A stretch of DNA of 64,000 nt from Cytophagales bacterium. Its GTDB lineage: Bacteria > Bacteroidota > Bacteroidia > Cytophagales > Cyclobacteriaceae. Shown piece by piece: positions 57,900 through 63,864 of this stretch. The notes beneath the pieces are model-generated. The model did not search any database. It was not told the DNA's origin and was given only the letters and a program-made list of their open reading frames with translations. Where the stretch lies: assembly GCA_017303805.1 (NCBI GenBank), contig JAFLBQ010000002.1:372001-436000 (forward strand). The letters run 5' to 3'. The position numbers were made by a program, and so were the translations under genes. Each line of letters opens with the position of its first letter. Position 1 is the stretch's first letter.

Positions 57900-60299
57900 A
57901 TGAATAGATCCATCCGCAAAGTAGCCGTTTTAGGTTCTGGCATTATGGGCTCGCGCATAGCGTGCCACTTCGCCAATATTGGTGTGCAAGTGTTATTGCT
58001 CGACATCGCACCTAACGAACTTACCGAAGAAGAAAAGAAGAAGGGCTTAACGCTCGACCATCCGGCCGTAAAAAACCGGATTGTGAATGCAGCCTTCGAG
58101 GCAACGCTTAAAGCCAATCCGGCCGCGTTGTTCAGCAAAAAATTCGCTTCGCGCATCACGTTAGGAAACTTTACTGATGATATGCCCAGGATTAAAACCT
58201 ACGATTGGACCATAGAAGTGGTAGTAGAAAACCTGGACATAAAAAAGAAAGTTTATACCGAAGTAGAAAAGTACCGCACCCCGGGCACACTTATTACATC
58301 CAATACTTCGGGCATTCCCATTCACTTAATGGCCGAAGGTCGCAGCGAAGATTTTCAAAAGCATTTTGCCGGCACGCACTTCTTTAATCCGCCACGGTAT
58401 CTTAAACTTTTAGAAATTATTCCTACTGCCAAAACCGATCCGGAGATAACCAGGTTCTTGCTTCATTATGGCGATCTCTTCCTCGGTAAAACTACCGTGT
58501 TATGCAAAGACACGCCTGCCTTTATTGGAAACCGCGTAGGCGTATGGGGCTTGCTGAAGGTAATAGATTCCATGCGTAAGTACGATCTTAACGTTGATGA
58601 AATTGATAAGCTTACCGGCCCGGTAATCGGAAGACCCAAGTCAGCTACGTTCAGAACGTCTGATGTGGTTGGCTTAGATACTTTGGTTAAAGTAGCGAAC
58701 AACTTATATGCAGGGTTGCCCAACGATGAAGGTCGTGAAATGTTTAAGTTACCTGAAGCCGTAAACAAACTGGAACAAAACAAATGGTTGGGCGATAAAA
58801 CCGGCCAGGGGTTTTATAAGAAATCGAAAAACGCCAAAGGCGAAACAGAAATTCTTACGCTCGATCTGAAAACGTTCGAGTATCAGCCGAAAGCCAAAGC
58901 AAAATTTGCTACACTCGAAACCACCAAGACCATCGACAACCTGAAAGATCGCTTTAAAGTATTGCTGGCCGGTAAAGACAAAGCCGGTGATTTCTATCGC
59001 GATATGTTTTTCGATTTGTTCAAGTATGTGAGCAACCGTATTCCGGAAATCAGCGATGAGCTTTTCCGCATTGATGATGCCGTGAGTGGCGGCTTTGGTT
59101 GGGAGCTCGGGCCGTTCGAAACCTGGGATGCCGTGGGTGTGGAAAAAAGCATTTCCTTAATGGAAGCAGCTGGTTACAAACCCAACCCCTGGGTGTACGA
59201 TATGCTGGCAGGCGGCAACAAATCATTCTATAAAACCGAAGGCGGCATTAAAAAGTACTACGACATACCTTCTAAGTCGTACAAATCCATTCCGGGCAGA
59301 GAAAGTTTTATAATTCTGGAAAGCAAGAGCGAGAGCGTGGTATGGAAAAATGCCGAATCGAAAGTTACCGACATTGGCGATGGCGTGCTCAACTTCTCGT
59401 GGCACAGTAAGAGTTACACATTGGGCAGCAGCGTTATCGAAGGTATGAACAAAGCAATTGATCTTGCCGAAAAAGAGTACAAAGGTTTGGTGGTTGGGCA
59501 TCAGGGTGCGGACTTCTCGCTGGGCGCGAATCTTGGATTGGTATTTATGTATGCCATCGAGCAGGATTATGACGAGATCGATTTCATGATTAAAGCATTT
59601 CAGAATTCTGTAATGCGTTTACGGTATTCTTCTATTCCTGTGGTGGTGGCTCCGCAAGGCAGAACTTTAGGTGGTGGTTGCGAGATGACGCTGCATGCCG
59701 ATATCGCGCAAGCAGCAGCCGAAACGTATATTGGTTTAGTGGAGGTTGGCGTGGGTTTGATTCCCGGTGGTGGTGGAACCAAGGAATTTACCAAGCGGGT
59801 GAGCGATGCGTTACAGGAAGGTGATGTGGAATTGAATGCACTTCAAAATGCGTTTATGACCATCGCAACTGCAAAAGTGGCCACCTCTGCCGAAGAAGCA
59901 CGCGAACTCGGCATTCTCAAAAAGCTCGATCGCGTAAGCATGAATAAGGACCGCCAGATAGCTGATGCGAAGCAAGCCGTGCTTGACCTTGTTGAGGCTG
60001 GCTATACCATGCCGCAACAAGCAAAGAACATTAAAGTGCAAGGCCGCACCGGCCAGGCGTTATTCCTTGCGGGATTACAAGGGATGTTAATGGGCCGTTA
60101 TATTTCTGAGCACGATGCCAAAGTAGCCAGGTGGATTGCCAATGTAATGTGTGGTGGTGATCTCAGCTATCCGCAGGAAGTTACAGAACAATACCTGTTG
60201 GATCTTGAACGCGAGGCCTTTTTATCATTAACAGGCGAAAAGAAAACCTTGGAGCGAATTCAATCTATTTTGACAGGTGGGAAGCCATTGAGAAATTAG
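57900..60299 (+). CDS. fadN: 3-hydroxyacyl-CoA dehydrogenase/enoyl-CoA hydratase fusion (FadN type)
   Basis: 799 residues; N-terminal 3-hydroxyacyl-CoA dehydrogenase followed by a C-terminal enoyl-CoA hydratase, the order of Bacillus FadN rather than of E. coli FadB. The NAD-binding site is VAVLGSGIMGSRIACHFANI at about 9-28; the dehydrogenase motifs are GTHFFNPPRYLKLLEIIPT and KDTPAFIGNRVG. The hydratase part (about 480-690) has GLVVGHQGADFSLGANL, PVVVAPQGRTLGGGCEMTLH and VEVGVGLIPGGGGTKEF, containing both catalytic Glu residues. It hydrates trans-enoyl-CoA and oxidises the product in the beta-oxidation cycle. First enzyme of the fadN-fadA-fadE operon; 20 bases after its stop begins a heptamer array. 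Confidence 0.95.
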   Translation: MNRSIRKVAVLGSGIMGSRIACHFANIGVQVLLLDIAPNELTEEEKKKGLTLDHPAVKNRIVNAAFEATLKANPAALFSKKFASRITLGNFTDDMPRIKTYDWTIEVVVENLDIKKKVYTEVEKYRTPGTLITSNTSGIPIHLMAEGRSEDFQKHFAGTHFFNPPRYLKLLEIIPTAKTDPEITRFLLHYGDLFLGKTTVLCKDTPAFIGNRVGVWGLLKVIDSMRKYDLNVDEIDKLTGPVIGRPKSATFRTSDVVGLDTLVKVANNLYAGLPNDEGREMFKLPEAVNKLEQNKWLGDKTGQGFYKKSKNAKGETEILTLDLKTFEYQPKAKAKFATLETTKTIDNLKDRFKVLLAGKDKAGDFYRDMFFDLFKYVSNRIPEISDELFRIDDAVSGGFGWELGPFETWDAVGVEKSISLMEAAGYKPNPWVYDMLAGGNKSFYKTEGGIKKYYDIPSKSYKSIPGRESFIILESKSESVVWKNAESKVTDIGDGVLNFSWHSKSYTLGSSVIEGMNKAIDLAEKEYKGLVVGHQGADFSLGANLGLVFMYAIEQDYDEIDFMIKAFQNSVMRLRYSSIPVVVAPQGRTLGGGCEMTLHADIAQAAAETYIGLVEVGVGLIPGGGGTKEFTKRVSDALQEGDVELNALQNAFMTIATAKVATSAEEARELGILKKLDRVSMNKDRQIADAKQAVLDLVEAGYTMPQQAKNIKVQGRTGQALFLAGLQGMLMGRYISEHDAKVARWIANVMCGGDLSYPQEVTEQYLLDLEREAFLSLTGEKKTLERIQSILTGGKPLRN

Positions 60300-60318
60300 T
60301 ATTTGAGTTGTCAGCCTA

Positions 60319-60353
60319 AGTCCAAAGTAAAAAGTCTTGAGTCGATAGTTGAG
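60319..60353 (+). repeat. Left 7-bp-period array (AGTCNNN) at the fadN/fadA junction
   Basis: Five consecutive heptamers: AGTCCAA, AGTAAAA, AGTCTTG, AGTCGAT, AGTTGAG. The period is exactly seven, the AGT core is kept and the other bases vary. Orientation is opposite to the array at 60721-60783. AGTCGATAGTT (60340-60350) has its perfect complement AACTATCGACT at 60721-60731, on the other side of the four-helix-bundle gene. Confidence 0.85.
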
Positions 60354-60370
60354 GGTAAAAGAAAAAGGAT

Positions 60371-60799
60371 ATGAATAATTATAAGGATTTGATCGTTTGG
60401 CAAAAGTCCATTGATTTGGCCGTTAAAATTTATGAGTCCACAAAAGAGTTTCCAAAAGAAGAGATGTATGGACTAACTTCTCAAGTACGGAGAAGTGCGG
60501 TTTCAATCGCATCAAATATTGCTGAAGGTGCTGGTAGAAATTCCAAAAAAGAATTCAATAACTTTTTAGGAATATCAAATGGATCATCCTGCGAATTGGA
60601 TACTCAATTAATAATAGCAAACAAGGTTAATTTCTTAGATACACAGGCTCTTGAAAATATTCAAAGCGATATTTTAGAAATTCAGAAAATGAACTGGGCA
60701 TTGCAAAAATCGTTGGAGATAACTATCGACTATTTACTAAGGACTATGTACTATTTACTAAGAACTAAATACTTAAGACTATGGACGCATACATCGTAG
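60371..60799 (+). CDS. Four-helix-bundle protein of the 23S rRNA intervening-sequence (S23/IVP) family
   Basis: 142 residues. The family signatures are clear: MNNYKDLIVWQKSIDLAVKI, ESTKEFPKEEMYGLTSQVRR, SAVSIASNIAEGAGRNSKKE and FLGISNGSSCELDTQLIIAN. Members were first found in intervening sequences of bacterial 23S rRNA and share the fold of the Avd protein of diversity-generating retroelements; their activity is unknown. A normal family end would be near residue 118. Here the chain continues as TIDYLLRTMYYLLRTKYLRL because the reading frame passes through the right heptamer array (three heptamers equal seven codons, hence the YYLLRT repeat), and it stops 19 bases inside fadA. The gene looks more AT-rich than fadN and fadA. 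It lies inside inverted arrays, interrupting the fad operon. Confidence 0.92.
   Translation: MNNYKDLIVWQKSIDLAVKIYESTKEFPKEEMYGLTSQVRRSAVSIASNIAEGAGRNSKKEFNNFLGISNGSSCELDTQLIIANKVNFLDTQALENIQSDILEIQKMNWALQKSLEITIDYLLRTMYYLLRTKYLRLWTHTS
60721..60783 (+). repeat. Right 7-bp-period array (NACTNNN) at the fadN/fadA junction
   Basis: Nine consecutive heptamers: AACTATC, GACTATT, TACTAAG, GACTATG, TACTATT, TACTAAG, AACTAAA, TACTTAA, GACTATG. The core ACT is the complement of the AGT core of the left array, so the two arrays are inverted relative to each other. The last unit contains the ATG of fadA (60781). The array also codes for the C-terminal tail of the four-helix-bundle protein. Confidence 0.9.
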
Positions 60800-61956
60800 C
60801 AGGATTCAGAACCGGGGTGGGCAAAGCTAAAAAGGGAGGCTTTCGCTTTACACGGCCCGATGATTTGGCCGCAGAGGTAATCAAGCACCTGGTAAAATCA
60901 ATTCCCGGATTGGAAAACAAAATGGTAGATGACCTGATTGTGGGCAATGCGGTACCCGAAGCAGACCAGGGCATGCAGATGGGCCGCATGATTTCGTTGC
61001 TTGCATTAGGCATTGATACTCCCGGTATGGTGGTAAACCGCTATTGCGGATCGGGTGTAGAAACTATCGCCATAGCAAGCCAACGCATACAAGCGGGGCA
61101 GGCTGATATAATAATTGCCGGTGGTACAGAGTCCATGTCGCTTGTACCGGTAATGGGTTTTAAAACAGCACTCAATTATACAATTGCAAAGAACACGCCC
61201 ACGTACTATACCAGCATGGGCCTTACAGCCGAAGAAGTTTCAAAGCAGTTCAAAATTTCGCGCGAAGAGCAAGACCAGTTCTCCTACGAAAGTCATATGA
61301 AAGCTGCAGCCGCCTGGAAAGAAGGTAAGTTCAAAGATGAAGTTGTTCCCATCACTGTAAAGGAAACTTACGTGGATGAAAACATGAAAAAGAAAACGCG
61401 CGAGTTTGTGGTAGCAACCGATGAGGGCATTCGGGCCGATACTACCGTGGAGGGCTTAGCCAAACTGAAACCGGTGTTTGCGCTGGGCGGAAGTGTAACG
61501 GCTGGCAACTCCTCGCAAACATCGGATGGGGCCGCGTTTGTAGCGGTAATGAGCGAAAGGATGGTGAAGCAATTGAACCTGAAACCCATTGCCCGTATGG
61601 TAAGCTATGCTACAGCCGGTGTTGATCCGCGCATTATGGGTATTGGCCCGGTAGCGGCAATTCCAAAGGCACTAAAGATTGCCGGCCTCCAGCAAGATGA
61701 CATCGATTTGTTTGAACTCAACGAAGCTTTTGCTGCACAATCGCTGGCGGTAGTAAAAGAGTTGGGTATTGATCGCACCAAATTAAATGTGAACGGTGGC
61801 GCTATTGCAGTGGGGCATCCGCTTGGTTCATCTGGTGCACGTTTATCGGTACAACTCTTTAACGAACTCCGCAGGCGCAACAAAAAGTACGGAATGGTTA
61901 CCGCCTGTGTAGGTGGCGGACAAGGAGTGGCAGGGATTTATGAGATGATGAATTAA
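60781..61956 (+). CDS. fadA: Acetyl-CoA C-acyltransferase (thiolase), FadA
   Basis: 391 residues, the exact length usual for bacterial FadA. The acyl-accepting Cys89 lies in NRYCGSGVETIAIASQRI; the second active site is GGAIAVGHPLGSSGARLSVQ with the His, and the third is VTACVGGGQGVAGIYE with the catalytic Cys. The thiolase loop INELNEAFA is FELNEAFAAQSLAV here. It cleaves 3-ketoacyl-CoA with CoA in the last step of beta-oxidation. The start codon sits in the last heptamer of the upstream array and the four-helix-bundle frame overlaps it by 19 bases, so translation may be coupled. A second pair of arrays follows the stop by two bases. Confidence 0.96.
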   Translation: MDAYIVAGFRTGVGKAKKGGFRFTRPDDLAAEVIKHLVKSIPGLENKMVDDLIVGNAVPEADQGMQMGRMISLLALGIDTPGMVVNRYCGSGVETIAIASQRIQAGQADIIIAGGTESMSLVPVMGFKTALNYTIAKNTPTYYTSMGLTAEEVSKQFKISREEQDQFSYESHMKAAAAWKEGKFKDEVVPITVKETYVDENMKKKTREFVVATDEGIRADTTVEGLAKLKPVFALGGSVTAGNSSQTSDGAAFVAVMSERMVKQLNLKPIARMVSYATAGVDPRIMGIGPVAAIPKALKIAGLQQDDIDLFELNEAFAAQSLAVVKELGIDRTKLNVNGGAIAVGHPLGSSGARLSVQLFNELRRRNKKYGMVTACVGGGQGVAGIYEMMN

Positions 61957-61958
61957 AA

Positions 61959-61986
61959 AGTCCATACTCGATAGTCCTGAGTCCAT
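61959..61986 (+). repeat. Left 7-bp-period array at the fadA/fadE junction
   Basis: Four heptamers: AGTCCAT, ACTCGAT, AGTCCTG, AGTCCAT, starting two bases after the thiolase stop. Same orientation as the left array at 60319-60353. ATAGTCCTGAGT (61971-61982) is perfectly complementary to ACTCAGGACTAT (62025-62036) of the right array. Confidence 0.85.
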
Positions 61987-62002
61987 AGACTAGTAACGAC
62001 CT

Positions 62003-62058
62003 AACTAAGGACTATGGACTTAATACTCAGGACTATAGACTCAATACTAAATACTAAG
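62003..62058 (+). repeat. Right 7-bp-period array at the fadA/fadE junction
   Basis: Eight heptamers: AACTAAG, GACTATG, GACTTAA, TACTCAG, GACTATA, GACTCAA, TACTAAA, TACTAAG. It ends three bases before the fadE start at 62062. Together with the left array it can fold into a hairpin: 12 pairs, a 7-base bulge (one heptamer), then CCATAG/CTATGG (61983-61988 with 62012-62017) and a 23-base loop. No gene lies between the arrays here. Confidence 0.88.
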
Positions 62059-62061
62059 AAC

Positions 62062-63864
62062 ATGAACACAACAACAGCAACCAGGAGCGCAATTAAAGGC
62101 GGAGAATTTCTTATTCGCGAAACGCAGGCACACGAAGTTTTTATTCCGGAAGAGTTTACGGAAGAGCAAAAAATGATTGCACAAACGTGCAAGGATTTTT
62201 TGAAGCAAGAAATCCACACGCGACTGGATGAAATCGATTCGATGAAAAATCCTGAGCTGATGCCTCAGCTTTTAGATAAGGCCGGGGAATTGGGCTTGCT
62301 GGGCACCTCGGTGCCGCAAGAACTTGGTGGCTTTGGAATGGATTTTAATACTACCATGCTGGTAGCCGAAGTGTTGGGTGCAGGCCATTCATTTGCGGTA
62401 GCAATTTCGGCACACACGGGTATCGGAACTTTACCAATTCTGTATTATGGTAATGAAGCCCAAAAGAAAAAGTACATCCCAAATCTAGCCTCGGGCAAGT
62501 GGAAGGCTGCCTATTGTTTAACCGAACCCGATTCCGGCAGCGATGCCAACTCGGGCAAAACCAAAGCAGTGCTCAGTGCGGATAAAAAGCACTATGTTAT
62601 CAACGGCCAGAAGATGTGGATTACCAATGGGGGCTTTGCCGATGTATATGTGGTGTTTGCCAAAATCGATAACGACAAGAATCTGAGCGCGTTTATTGTG
62701 GAGAAAGCGTTCGGAGGCATCACCATGAATGAAGAAGAAAAAAAGATGGGTATTAAGGGCTCTTCCACGCGGCAGATTTTCTTTAACGACTGTAAAGTAC
62801 CCGTAGAGAATTTATTGAGTGAACGCGAGAACGGCTTTAAGATAGCAGTAAACATTTTGAACATTGGTCGCATTAAATTAGGTGTTGCCGCGGTGGGCGG
62901 ATCGAAGGCTACGTTAAGTAAAGCCATTAACTACGCCAAAGAGCGGAAGCAGTTTGGTGTACCGCTGGCAACCTTTGGCGCCATACAGCACAAGATAGCC
63001 GATGTGGCCACTCATATTTTTGCTTCCGAGTCGGCACACTATCGCGCCAGCCAGAATATTGACGATGCCTACAATGCCTTTGTTGCCGCGGGCATGAATT
63101 CTGCGCAAGCACGATTGAAGGCACTGGAAGAATTTGCCATTGAGTGTGCCATTCTGAAAGTACACGGCTCGGAAGTATTGGATTATAGTGTGGATGAAGG
63201 CGTTCAGATTTATGGTGGCATGGGATTCTCGGCCGAAGGGCCAATGGATCGCGCTTATCGCGATGCGCGCATCAACAGAATTTTTGAAGGCACCAACGAG
63301 ATCAACCGCTTGCTTACTATTGATATGCTGCTGAAGCGCGCCATGAAAGGTCATTTGGATTTAATGAATCCGGCTATGGCGGTGCAAAAAGAACTGATGT
63401 CGATACCTGACTTTGGTAGCGATGACGATACTGCGTTGTTCGCCAAAGAGAAAAAAGCCTTGCGTAATTTAAAAAAGGCCGGACTGATGGTTTCCGGTGC
63501 AGCGGTTCAGAAGTTTATGATGAAGCTTTCGGAAGAGCAGGAGATTTTGATGAACCTGGCCGATATGCTGATTGAAGGCTATGTAGCCGAATCGGTATTG
63601 TTGCGCGTAGAAAAGTTAATAAGCCTGCGGGGCGAAAAGGCCTGCGAGGCGGAAAAGGAAATGGCGATGATCTACTTACACCATGCGATTGATAAAGCGG
63701 CTGCTGCCGGCAAGAGCGCCATTACTTCTTTTGCCGAAGGCGATGAACAACGCCTGATGCTGATGGGCTTGAAACGCTTTACCAAAGTTGAACCCTACAA
63801 TCTGAAAAATGCAAGGCGCAAAGTAGCGAAGGTGTTGATTGAAAAGGGCGAGTATTCGTTCTGA
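62062..63864 (+). CDS. fadE: Acyl-CoA dehydrogenase, FadE type
   Basis: 600 residues from ATG 62062 (MNTTTATRSAIKGGEFLIRE); an upstream in-frame ATG at 62014 would read through the heptamer array and is rejected. The ACAD fold is complete: EVLGAGHSFAVAISAHTGIG, AYCLTEPDSGSDANSGKTKA (FAD/substrate), MWITNGGFADVYVVFAKI, GIKGSSTRQIFFNDCKVPVE, and EGVQIYGGMGFSAEGPMDRA with IFEGTNEINRLL near the catalytic Glu. The extra C-terminal ~170 residues are typical of the FadE group of Bacillus. It introduces the trans-double bond in acyl-CoA, the first step of beta-oxidation. Last gene of the operon; a terminator follows. Confidence 0.96.
   Translation: MNTTTATRSAIKGGEFLIRETQAHEVFIPEEFTEEQKMIAQTCKDFLKQEIHTRLDEIDSMKNPELMPQLLDKAGELGLLGTSVPQELGGFGMDFNTTMLVAEVLGAGHSFAVAISAHTGIGTLPILYYGNEAQKKKYIPNLASGKWKAAYCLTEPDSGSDANSGKTKAVLSADKKHYVINGQKMWITNGGFADVYVVFAKIDNDKNLSAFIVEKAFGGITMNEEEKKMGIKGSSTRQIFFNDCKVPVENLLSERENGFKIAVNILNIGRIKLGVAAVGGSKATLSKAINYAKERKQFGVPLATFGAIQHKIADVATHIFASESAHYRASQNIDDAYNAFVAAGMNSAQARLKALEEFAIECAILKVHGSEVLDYSVDEGVQIYGGMGFSAEGPMDRAYRDARINRIFEGTNEINRLLTIDMLLKRAMKGHLDLMNPAMAVQKELMSIPDFGSDDDTALFAKEKKALRNLKKAGLMVSGAAVQKFMMKLSEEQEILMNLADMLIEGYVAESVLLRVEKLISLRGEKACEAEKEMAMIYLHHAIDKAAAAGKSAITSFAEGDEQRLMLMGLKRFTKVEPYNLKNARRKVAKVLIEKGEYSF

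Follow-up and report, generated by a model that had tools for sequence, protein, structure and literature searches.

The S23 gene of the window and its heptamer arrays

The window, that is, the whole 64,000-nucleotide stretch of Cytophagales bacterium DNA that was analyzed, carries a gene for an S23 (23S_rRNA_IVP) four-helix-bundle protein at 60371..60799 on the + strand. The protein matched PF05635 (2.1e-40; 137.6 bits against a cut-off of 33.8) and TIGR02436 (3.1e-38; 130.3 bits against 24), which places it, as proposed in the initial annotation, in the family encoded by 23S rRNA intervening sequences (IVS). Its site is the fadN-fadA junction and not a 23S rRNA gene. Upstream lies a fadN/fadB-like 3-hydroxyacyl-CoA dehydrogenase/hydratase gene (57900..60299, +; NF052272, 1.1e-175, with 585.9 bits and hence under the curated cut-off of 999) and downstream an acetyl-CoA acyltransferase gene, fadA (60781..61956, +; TIGR01930, 3.1e-136, above the cut-off).

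The S23 gene is associated with two arrays. Reading of the sequence identified a left array (60319..60353, +) of five AGTNNNN units, AGTCCAA, AGTAAAA, AGTCTTG, AGTCGAT, and AGTTGAG, whose period of 7 was recovered by autocorrelation and which starts 19 nt after the fadN stop codon (TAG, 60297-60299). AGT is kept in all five units and AGTC in three, the remaining two having AGTA and AGTT; the five period-7 units initially described are hence present, but their spelling as five AGTCNNN was overstated. The right array (60721..60783, −) is inverted with respect to the left one, and here the sequence agrees with the initial description, NACTNNN being kept in nine of nine units. An 11-nt segment at 60340..60350, to which no strand is assigned, is an exact reverse complement of 60721-60731, again as first described. 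In first-order Markov simulations of these flanks, 3 of 2000 left-like sequences kept some trinucleotide through five consecutive heptamers, and none of 2000 right-like sequences did so through nine. The inverted period-7 arrays around the S23 gene are confirmed as real.

Gene and right array overlap. The S23 domain spans approximately residues 1 to 115, and the following 27 residues are mostly the translated right array. The 3' end of the gene runs over the fadA start at 60781, and the fadA ATG falls within the last array unit. Between the arrays, the S23 ORF is the only one of at least 80 amino acids, and the full-length element contains no transposase or nuclease gene. A search for known RNA families (Rfam) gave no match within 60000-62300. 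A second pair of arrays, absent from the initial annotation, with the same heptamer and no gene, is located between fadA and an acyl-CoA dehydrogenase gene; its left arm (61959..61993, +) was identified by sequence reading and its right arm (62003..62058, −) by sequence reading and a period-7 scan.

Heptamer arrays accompany S23 genes in several phyla

Of the 295 genomes of the bacterial family that we examined, 265 encode S23 proteins. We assembled 116 S23 loci: 4 from the genome of the window, 30 from the family, 14 named loci from multiple phyla, 28 from the genus, and 40 more from the genus (L137-L176). All 30 loci from the family, and most of the 28 from the genus, were taken as the best-scoring matches; the last 40 were hand-picked among the weakest genus matches listed (E 1e-28 to 2e-21) and cover only some of the matches in that range. 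Four elements probably occur in two collections (L065/L093, L066/L079, L067/L061, and probably L068/L096). Flanks of 300 nt were scored by their best 28-nt window of lag-7 identity, and arrays with at least 18 of 28 were called strong. Control segments lay 600 to 900 nt away, unsorted into coding and intergenic; they probably fall mostly in neighboring genes and therefore provide no measure of such flanks beside other small genes.

Strong period-7 arrays were present in 157 of 228 S23 flanks compared to 4 of 225 of these probably mostly genic controls (154 of 220 compared to 4 of 217 without the probable duplicates L065-L068). Period-8 arrays occurred in 16 of 228 flanks and in none of 225 controls, and the harmonics 14 and 16 were raised (100/228 and 11/228), whereas other periods from 4 to 15 gave 1 to 8 of 228 flanks and 0 to 9 of 225 controls. 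When scored per locus (score of at least 17 at period 7 or 8), 81 of 114 loci had arrays in both flanks and 109 in at least one, leaving five that failed in both; for control segments, the figures were 1 and 7 of 109. These counts are lowered by the right flanks of L065-L068 and L071, which were measured past part of the array. Relatives with the gene and without arrays, which the initial annotation would have counted against its reading, are thus largely absent.

The same architecture recurs with the S23 family in other phyla, in good agreement with the initial view of gene and arrays as one unit. Indeed, the six named loci outside Bacteroidota, from Stahlbacteria (L070), Acaryochloris (L073), Patescibacteria (L075), Firestonebacteria (L076), Verrucomicrobiota (L077), and Kuenenbacteria (L078), all have period-7 or -8 arrays; these lie on both sides in five of the loci, and in L076 the right arm is weak. 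Similarly, in an independent set of plasmids (12 of 42 plasmid records with an S23 match, from cyanobacteria, Gemmatirosa, and Azospirillum), such arrays were found on both sides in 11 of 12 loci and were clearly inverted in 9; the exceptions were L230 and L236, with arrays in the same orientation, and L231, which was weak. The S23-heptamer pattern is general, and we rate its extent as new: in the open-access PMC literature we found no general rule tying S23 genes to inverted heptamer arrays.

A period of 8 rather than 7 was seen at L072, L076, L078, L169, L172, L174, L234, L235, and L237, indicating that the array spacing itself varies among S23 lineages.

The two arms of a locus share a private heptamer

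The two arms, each located independently, were compared in the 76 loci whose flanks both hold strong period-7 arrays. Between the left arm and the reverse-complemented right arm of the same locus, the mean match was 4.60, compared to 3.27 ± 0.06 for permuted arms (maximum of 3.56 in 10,000), and the inverted match exceeded the direct match in 75 of 76 loci. Conservation was uneven over the seven heptamer columns in 78 of 83 loci. The column conservation also agreed between arms (mean r of 0.61, positive in 78 of 83 loci), but this is weaker evidence because the pooled profile used to locate the arms favors agreement. Even decay over the columns is what slippage alone should produce; the observed pattern instead looks like three to four read letters and three to four freer ones. 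The four best columns were contiguous in 36 of 83 loci against 20% expected at random, which is above chance and not universal. In 74 of 89 loci, G outnumbered C in the left arm. With arms detectable from about 4 units upward, the median length was 5 units; lengths of 4, 6, and 7 were also common.

The heptamer is private to each locus. The genome of the window (4.29 Mb) has four PF05635 matches, all with period-7 arrays on both sides, yet AGTC arrays at only one of them; their heptamers, one each, are AGTC, AAGCT, GTTACT (with a weaker right arm), and a TAATC/AGTA type. A single conserved heptamer (AGTC) was rejected, as the spelling differs across loci and among these four genes. Hence, AGTCNNN/NACTNNN does not hold as the rule initially suggested, although arrays do flank S23 genes widely. 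The window locus has the architecture of the class that we propose below, an S23 gene between inverted arrays of a common private heptamer.

The heptamer follows the type of S23 protein

We then compared heptamers between pairs of the 83 period-7 loci from different gene contexts. Below 60% S23 identity, heptamers were alike in 1 to 7% of the pairs per bin; at 60 to 70% identity, they were alike in 35% of 23 pairs, and above this in two of two. The signal was modest over the whole set (Mantel r of 0.160; null standard deviation of 0.035 and null maximum of 0.161 in 2000 permutations).

The same link was apparent in 40 genomes of the genus. Here, counts are pattern matches, several per array, shared descent is ignored, and the cut-offs for S23 type (70%; 60% and 50% identity) were set after seeing the identity lists. 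Genomes with an S23 at least 70% identical to that of the window (n = 7; 0, 5, 9, 9, 10, 36, and 46 matches) had a median of 9 AGTC matches, compared to 1 in the genomes without (n = 33; P = 0.0035, or 0.011 without the window's own genome). GTTG matches had a median of 27.5 (5, 27, 28, and 55) in the four genomes with an L101-type S23 of at least 60% identity, compared to 4 in the other 36 (P = 0.005); with L101-type S23 of at least 50% over the full length, the medians were 23 (n = 6) and 4 (n = 34; P = 0.001). Without the two genomes that supplied the heptamer, P was 0.08 in the four-genome version and 0.016 in the six-genome version. When heptamers and S23 types were crossed, no association was found in the 40 genomes (P = 0.48 to 0.95). 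Some genomes depart from the trend. The AGTC pattern occurs without matching S23 in G307 (16) and G302 (9) and the GTTG pattern in G314 (24) and G299 (21), while G309 (84% complete) has a matching S23 and no AGTC match; the 31 AGTC matches of G304 mostly have another heptamer spelling. As judged from these sequence comparisons, uncorrected for kinship, the link between heptamer type and S23 type is well supported.

The reversed control pattern CTGANNN was itself strongly enriched in G016, G103, and G262 (up to 84 matches per strand), in which other tetramer types may dominate.

Gene-less pairs are dispersed in the genome

In the genome of the window, the pattern AGTCNNNAGTCNNNAGTC gave 36 matches, overlapping matches within one array being counted separately, compared to 2 for the reversed control pattern. 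The AGTC-pattern places that we read were mostly inverted pairs with a short spacer, intergenic and without an S23 gene. A scan of 464 kb (the window and 400 kb more of the same genome) gave 17 period-7 arrays; 3 were assigned an overlap with a reading frame, including the two window arrays that run into start codons. Arrays without a gene, which the initial annotation had named as an argument against its reading, are hence indeed widespread, but the numbers of pattern matches follow the matching S23 type.

One gene-less inverted AGTC pair (L013:1494-1574; G000:C3, near 67123-67193) sits in frame inside a 454-amino-acid reading frame that looks, by eye, like a kynurenine monooxygenase; it adds about 27 codons and no stop. 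Another inverted pair, GTTACTGG-like (L177:14442-14805; G000:C1:214442-214805), has the heptamer found at the S23 gene of L003 and encloses a short reading frame of about 77 amino acids with hydrophobic stretches that is not an S23.

Elements turn over at the fadN-fadA junction

The fadN-fadA junction was compared in the 30 of 40 genus genomes that have this locus, and its states were scored by eye. In line with the insertion suspected initially, 5 junctions were empty or nearly so (L118, L119, L124, L130, and L134; 23 to 55 nt), 10 had arrays only, and 15 had an S23 gene with arrays, the fifteenth of these (L115) having been checked separately. Among these assignments, L118 and L124, scored as empty, may keep arm remnants, and L133, scored as array-only, has a weak left arm. 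Several types of heptamer occur at the S23-bearing junctions, among them AGTC, CAGT, and TGACA. On one quick fadN tree, at least 7 changes were needed for S23 presence, 12 for the three states, and 17 for states and heptamer type together. The window element is thus polymorphic as an insertion among relatives, and elements at this junction have repeatedly been gained, lost, and replaced.

Two more junctions, flanking a gene for a 368-amino-acid protein, were read in 12 loci. They carry AGTC arrays in the genome of the window and in several relatives and are empty in others: downstream of the gene in L201, L202, and L208 (6 to 7 nt from stop to start) and upstream in L207 and L208 (20 to 21 nt). 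The number of units varies between relatives. This variation between filled and empty orthologous junctions is insertion-like behavior. At the junctions read, no target-site duplication or exact insertion boundary was established. Where relatives have AGTC arrays, the upstream junction of L202 (approximately 1048-1270) contains a different element of about 110 nt in two near-identical direct copies.

Structure of S23 and a possible mode of recognition

An AlphaFold2 model of the window S23, computed from 27 sequences, had four helices and a pLDDT of 97.3. Its best matches in the PDB were 2gsc (Xanthomonas campestris XCC0516; TM score of 0.91 to 0.95) and 2rld (Bacteroides), both with five chains. 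This agrees with the available text of PMC4990558, in which the former, the Xanthomonas S23, is described as a toroidal homopentamer. In the open-access PMC literature, as far as its text was accessible, no function is assigned to S23 proteins.

Since a five-membered ring is matched by arms of about five repeats, a reading of one subunit per repeat suggests itself, for which TRAP provides a precedent. We know of no nuclease activity of S23.

Taken together, these data suggest a mobile element of a kind that has been little studied and whose protein may read its own repeat. We consider it fairly probable that the S23 loci form a class of small elements in which an S23 gene lies between inverted arrays of a lineage-private heptamer that is recognized by the element's own S23 pentamer. 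According to this hypothesis, the heptamer, or octamer in some lineages, would be private to each element lineage, and the ring-shaped pentamer would read the three to four best conserved letters with about one subunit per repeat, the arms having a median of five units. Such recognition could let S23 mark its own element or spread it into gene junctions, and the gene-less pairs would then be MITE-like satellites spread by S23 into the junctions between genes. S23-encoding 23S rRNA IVS may be members of the class that landed in rRNA. The architecture itself is firm; the binding of S23 to the heptamer, its stoichiometry, and the part of the protein in movement are what we infer here. A locus-specific repeat that tracks the protein does, however, provide a candidate ligand for each S23, so that the question of what S23 does becomes a binding test.

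Relation to known elements and repeats

S23-encoding IVS are the closest known relatives. In the available text of PMC4990558, the S23 ORF in the 23S IVS of Coxiella is preceded by three heptamers in tandem (in some strains two) plus a degenerate copy, and this IVS has a 28-bp near-perfect terminal stem and is excised by RNase III in vitro; Leptospira and Brucella are also named for such IVS. The Coxiella IVS resembles the elements described here in having an S23 ORF in an inserted element, complementary ends, and heptamers just upstream of the ORF, and the tandem heptamers strengthen the likeness to IVS that the initial annotation had drawn. The heptamer at L238 (Azospirillum plasmid), GGACAGA/TGACAGA, resembles the Coxiella heptamer GACAGAT. 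Unlike the Coxiella IVS, which lies in a 23S rRNA gene, our elements lie between protein genes and have dispersed gene-less copies, and in place of the 28-bp stem their arms have a common heptamer, with a mirrored unit order that was not significant.

The GGGAATC repeats of Xanthomonas and Nostoc are similar to S23 arrays in being mostly intergenic heptamers with inverted pairs. In X. campestris, the available text of PMC4692102 reports 186 heptamer sets, the majority with four units and 89% of them intergenic, 70 cases of convergent inverted pairs, and conservation of positions 1 to 4 and 6. These repeats are linked there to G-quadruplexes and not to S23; the terms S23, four helix, and XCC0516 are absent from the main text of PMC4692102, although the protein of 2gsc (XCC0516) is from X. 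campestris. TAACTGA heptamers were described in Beggiatoaceae, Cyanobacteria, and Bacteroidetes as mostly intergenic, their indels between two Cyanothece strains being mostly multiples of 7 in length (PMC4679880, available text). A role as regulator or a mobile origin is considered there, with S1, Csp, and Csr as candidate binders, and S23 is not mentioned in that text. In contrast to S23 arrays, they consist of a single heptamer repeated directly; the main genome has one inverted case.

REP/RAYT and MITE elements also have palindromic, gene-less intergenic copies that depend on a protein encoded elsewhere. S23 elements differ from them in having tandem heptamers instead of a fixed palindrome and no transposase gene.

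More tentatively, S23 proteins could form a very large family of rings that read short repeats in tandem, with one subunit per repeat and a heptamer or octamer of its own for each clade, and that spread their gene and its satellites. This would cover the 23S IVS, the Xanthomonas GGGAATC repeats, and the cyanobacterial and Bacteroidota arrays; it is a possibility that we entertain without leaning toward it. Three published oddities, the S23 rRNA IVS, the G-rich heptamer pairs of Xanthomonas, and the heptamers of cyanobacteria and others, might then be faces of one class, and the joined class would have no known transposase. If S23 does read short repeats in a modular way, the natural pairs of protein and repeat would allow the code to be learned.

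Alternative explanations

S23 proteins might instead be regulators, each binding its own arrays in mRNA (or DNA) and controlling a scattered regulon, with the gene-less arrays as selected targets. This would agree with pattern matches that follow the S23 type genome-wide, with the position of the arrays, at the junctions read, between one gene's stop codon and the next gene's start, and with gene-less arrays that share one heptamer look, as judged by eye, at the fadN-fadA junction of L114, L121, L122, and L131. However, among relatives this junction varies from empty to array-only to S23-bearing, the last with differing heptamers, and the 12 or more changes required fit turnover better than a stable regulon. 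We regard this explanation as rather doubtful.

The initial annotation had interpreted the window element as an mRNA intervening sequence: the operon transcript would fold via the inverted arrays, with the S23 ORF in the loop, and RNase III would cut the stem. The RNase III-cut IVS with tandem heptamers before its ORF (PMC4990558, available text) is a model for this, and the arms are complementary in motif across loci. Furthermore, S23 is on the strand of both neighbors in 106 of 113 loci, compared to 177 of 387 genes in a sample of the window's genome. This sense orientation could, however, be explained by dependence on read-through transcription alone, and of 10 annotated cyanobacterial plasmid copies 3 (L227, L231, and L236) are antisense to both neighbors. 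In the window, the arms combine the 11-nt exact complement with complementarity at the level of the motif; across loci, a mirrored unit order was not significant (P = 0.064), and duplex energies favored the sense strand in 59 and the antisense strand in 55 of 114 loci. Since the mirrored order is not significant and the energies do not differ between strands, we see no indication that an RNA stem as such has been selected. The lack of an Rfam match in 60000-62300, the many gene-less copies, and the one copy that sits in frame within a reading frame also argue against this reading, which we consider unlikely. The initial annotation is partly supported: the unit of gene and arrays and the insertion-like variation stand, whereas processing as an intervening sequence is unproven. 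Its better parts are the alternative that it gave of a mobile element and the idea that the protein recognizes the heptamers.

Slippage, in which S23 genes would merely insert in or near ordinary intergenic slippage repeats, would account for unit numbers that differ between relatives and for bacterial heptamer repeats described with no mention of S23 (PMC4692102 and PMC4679880, as far as available), but it is highly improbable given that the arms of a locus match far beyond chance and are inverted in 75 of 76 loci, that conservation is uneven across columns, that the heptamer follows the S23 type, and that only 4 of 225 nearby, probably mostly genic, controls have such arrays.

Finally, the element could be copied from RNA by a reverse transcriptase supplied in trans, with which the S23/Avd-like protein would act. 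After S23 itself, the next known family by fold was indeed Avd, which functions in the ribonucleoprotein of diversity-generating retroelements (DGRs) and has the four-helix bundle in common (chains 4dwl, 8ub7, 8ubb, and 8ube; TM scores of 0.76 to 0.86, 9 to 11% identity, and a Foldseek probability of 1.00 but E values of 0.09 to 0.36), and the sense orientation of S23 genes in operons would fit. By sequence the similarity is weak, NF033474 (DGR Avd) giving 23.6 bits against a cut-off of 80. In contrast to the setting of DGR Avd, the S23 element contains no reverse transcriptase: the neighbors of the window S23 are fadN and fadA, and the only PF00078 match of its genome is on another contig (C5). 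In a search with the PF00078 family alone, 29 of 40 genus genomes had no match, including the pattern-rich G274, G308, G251, and G229, which makes a reverse transcriptase unlikely as the mover, and we give this explanation very little credence.

Genomic neighbors of plasmid-borne S23 elements

On a Nostoc plasmid (L227), the S23 element lies antisense between the genes for the beta and alpha subunits of ribonucleotide reductase. At L230, L232, and L234, S23 and its arrays are found within CRISPR-Cas operons of cyanobacterial plasmids, the gene order being cas6 / S23 / cas4 in two of these loci and cas10 / S23 / cmr3 in the third.
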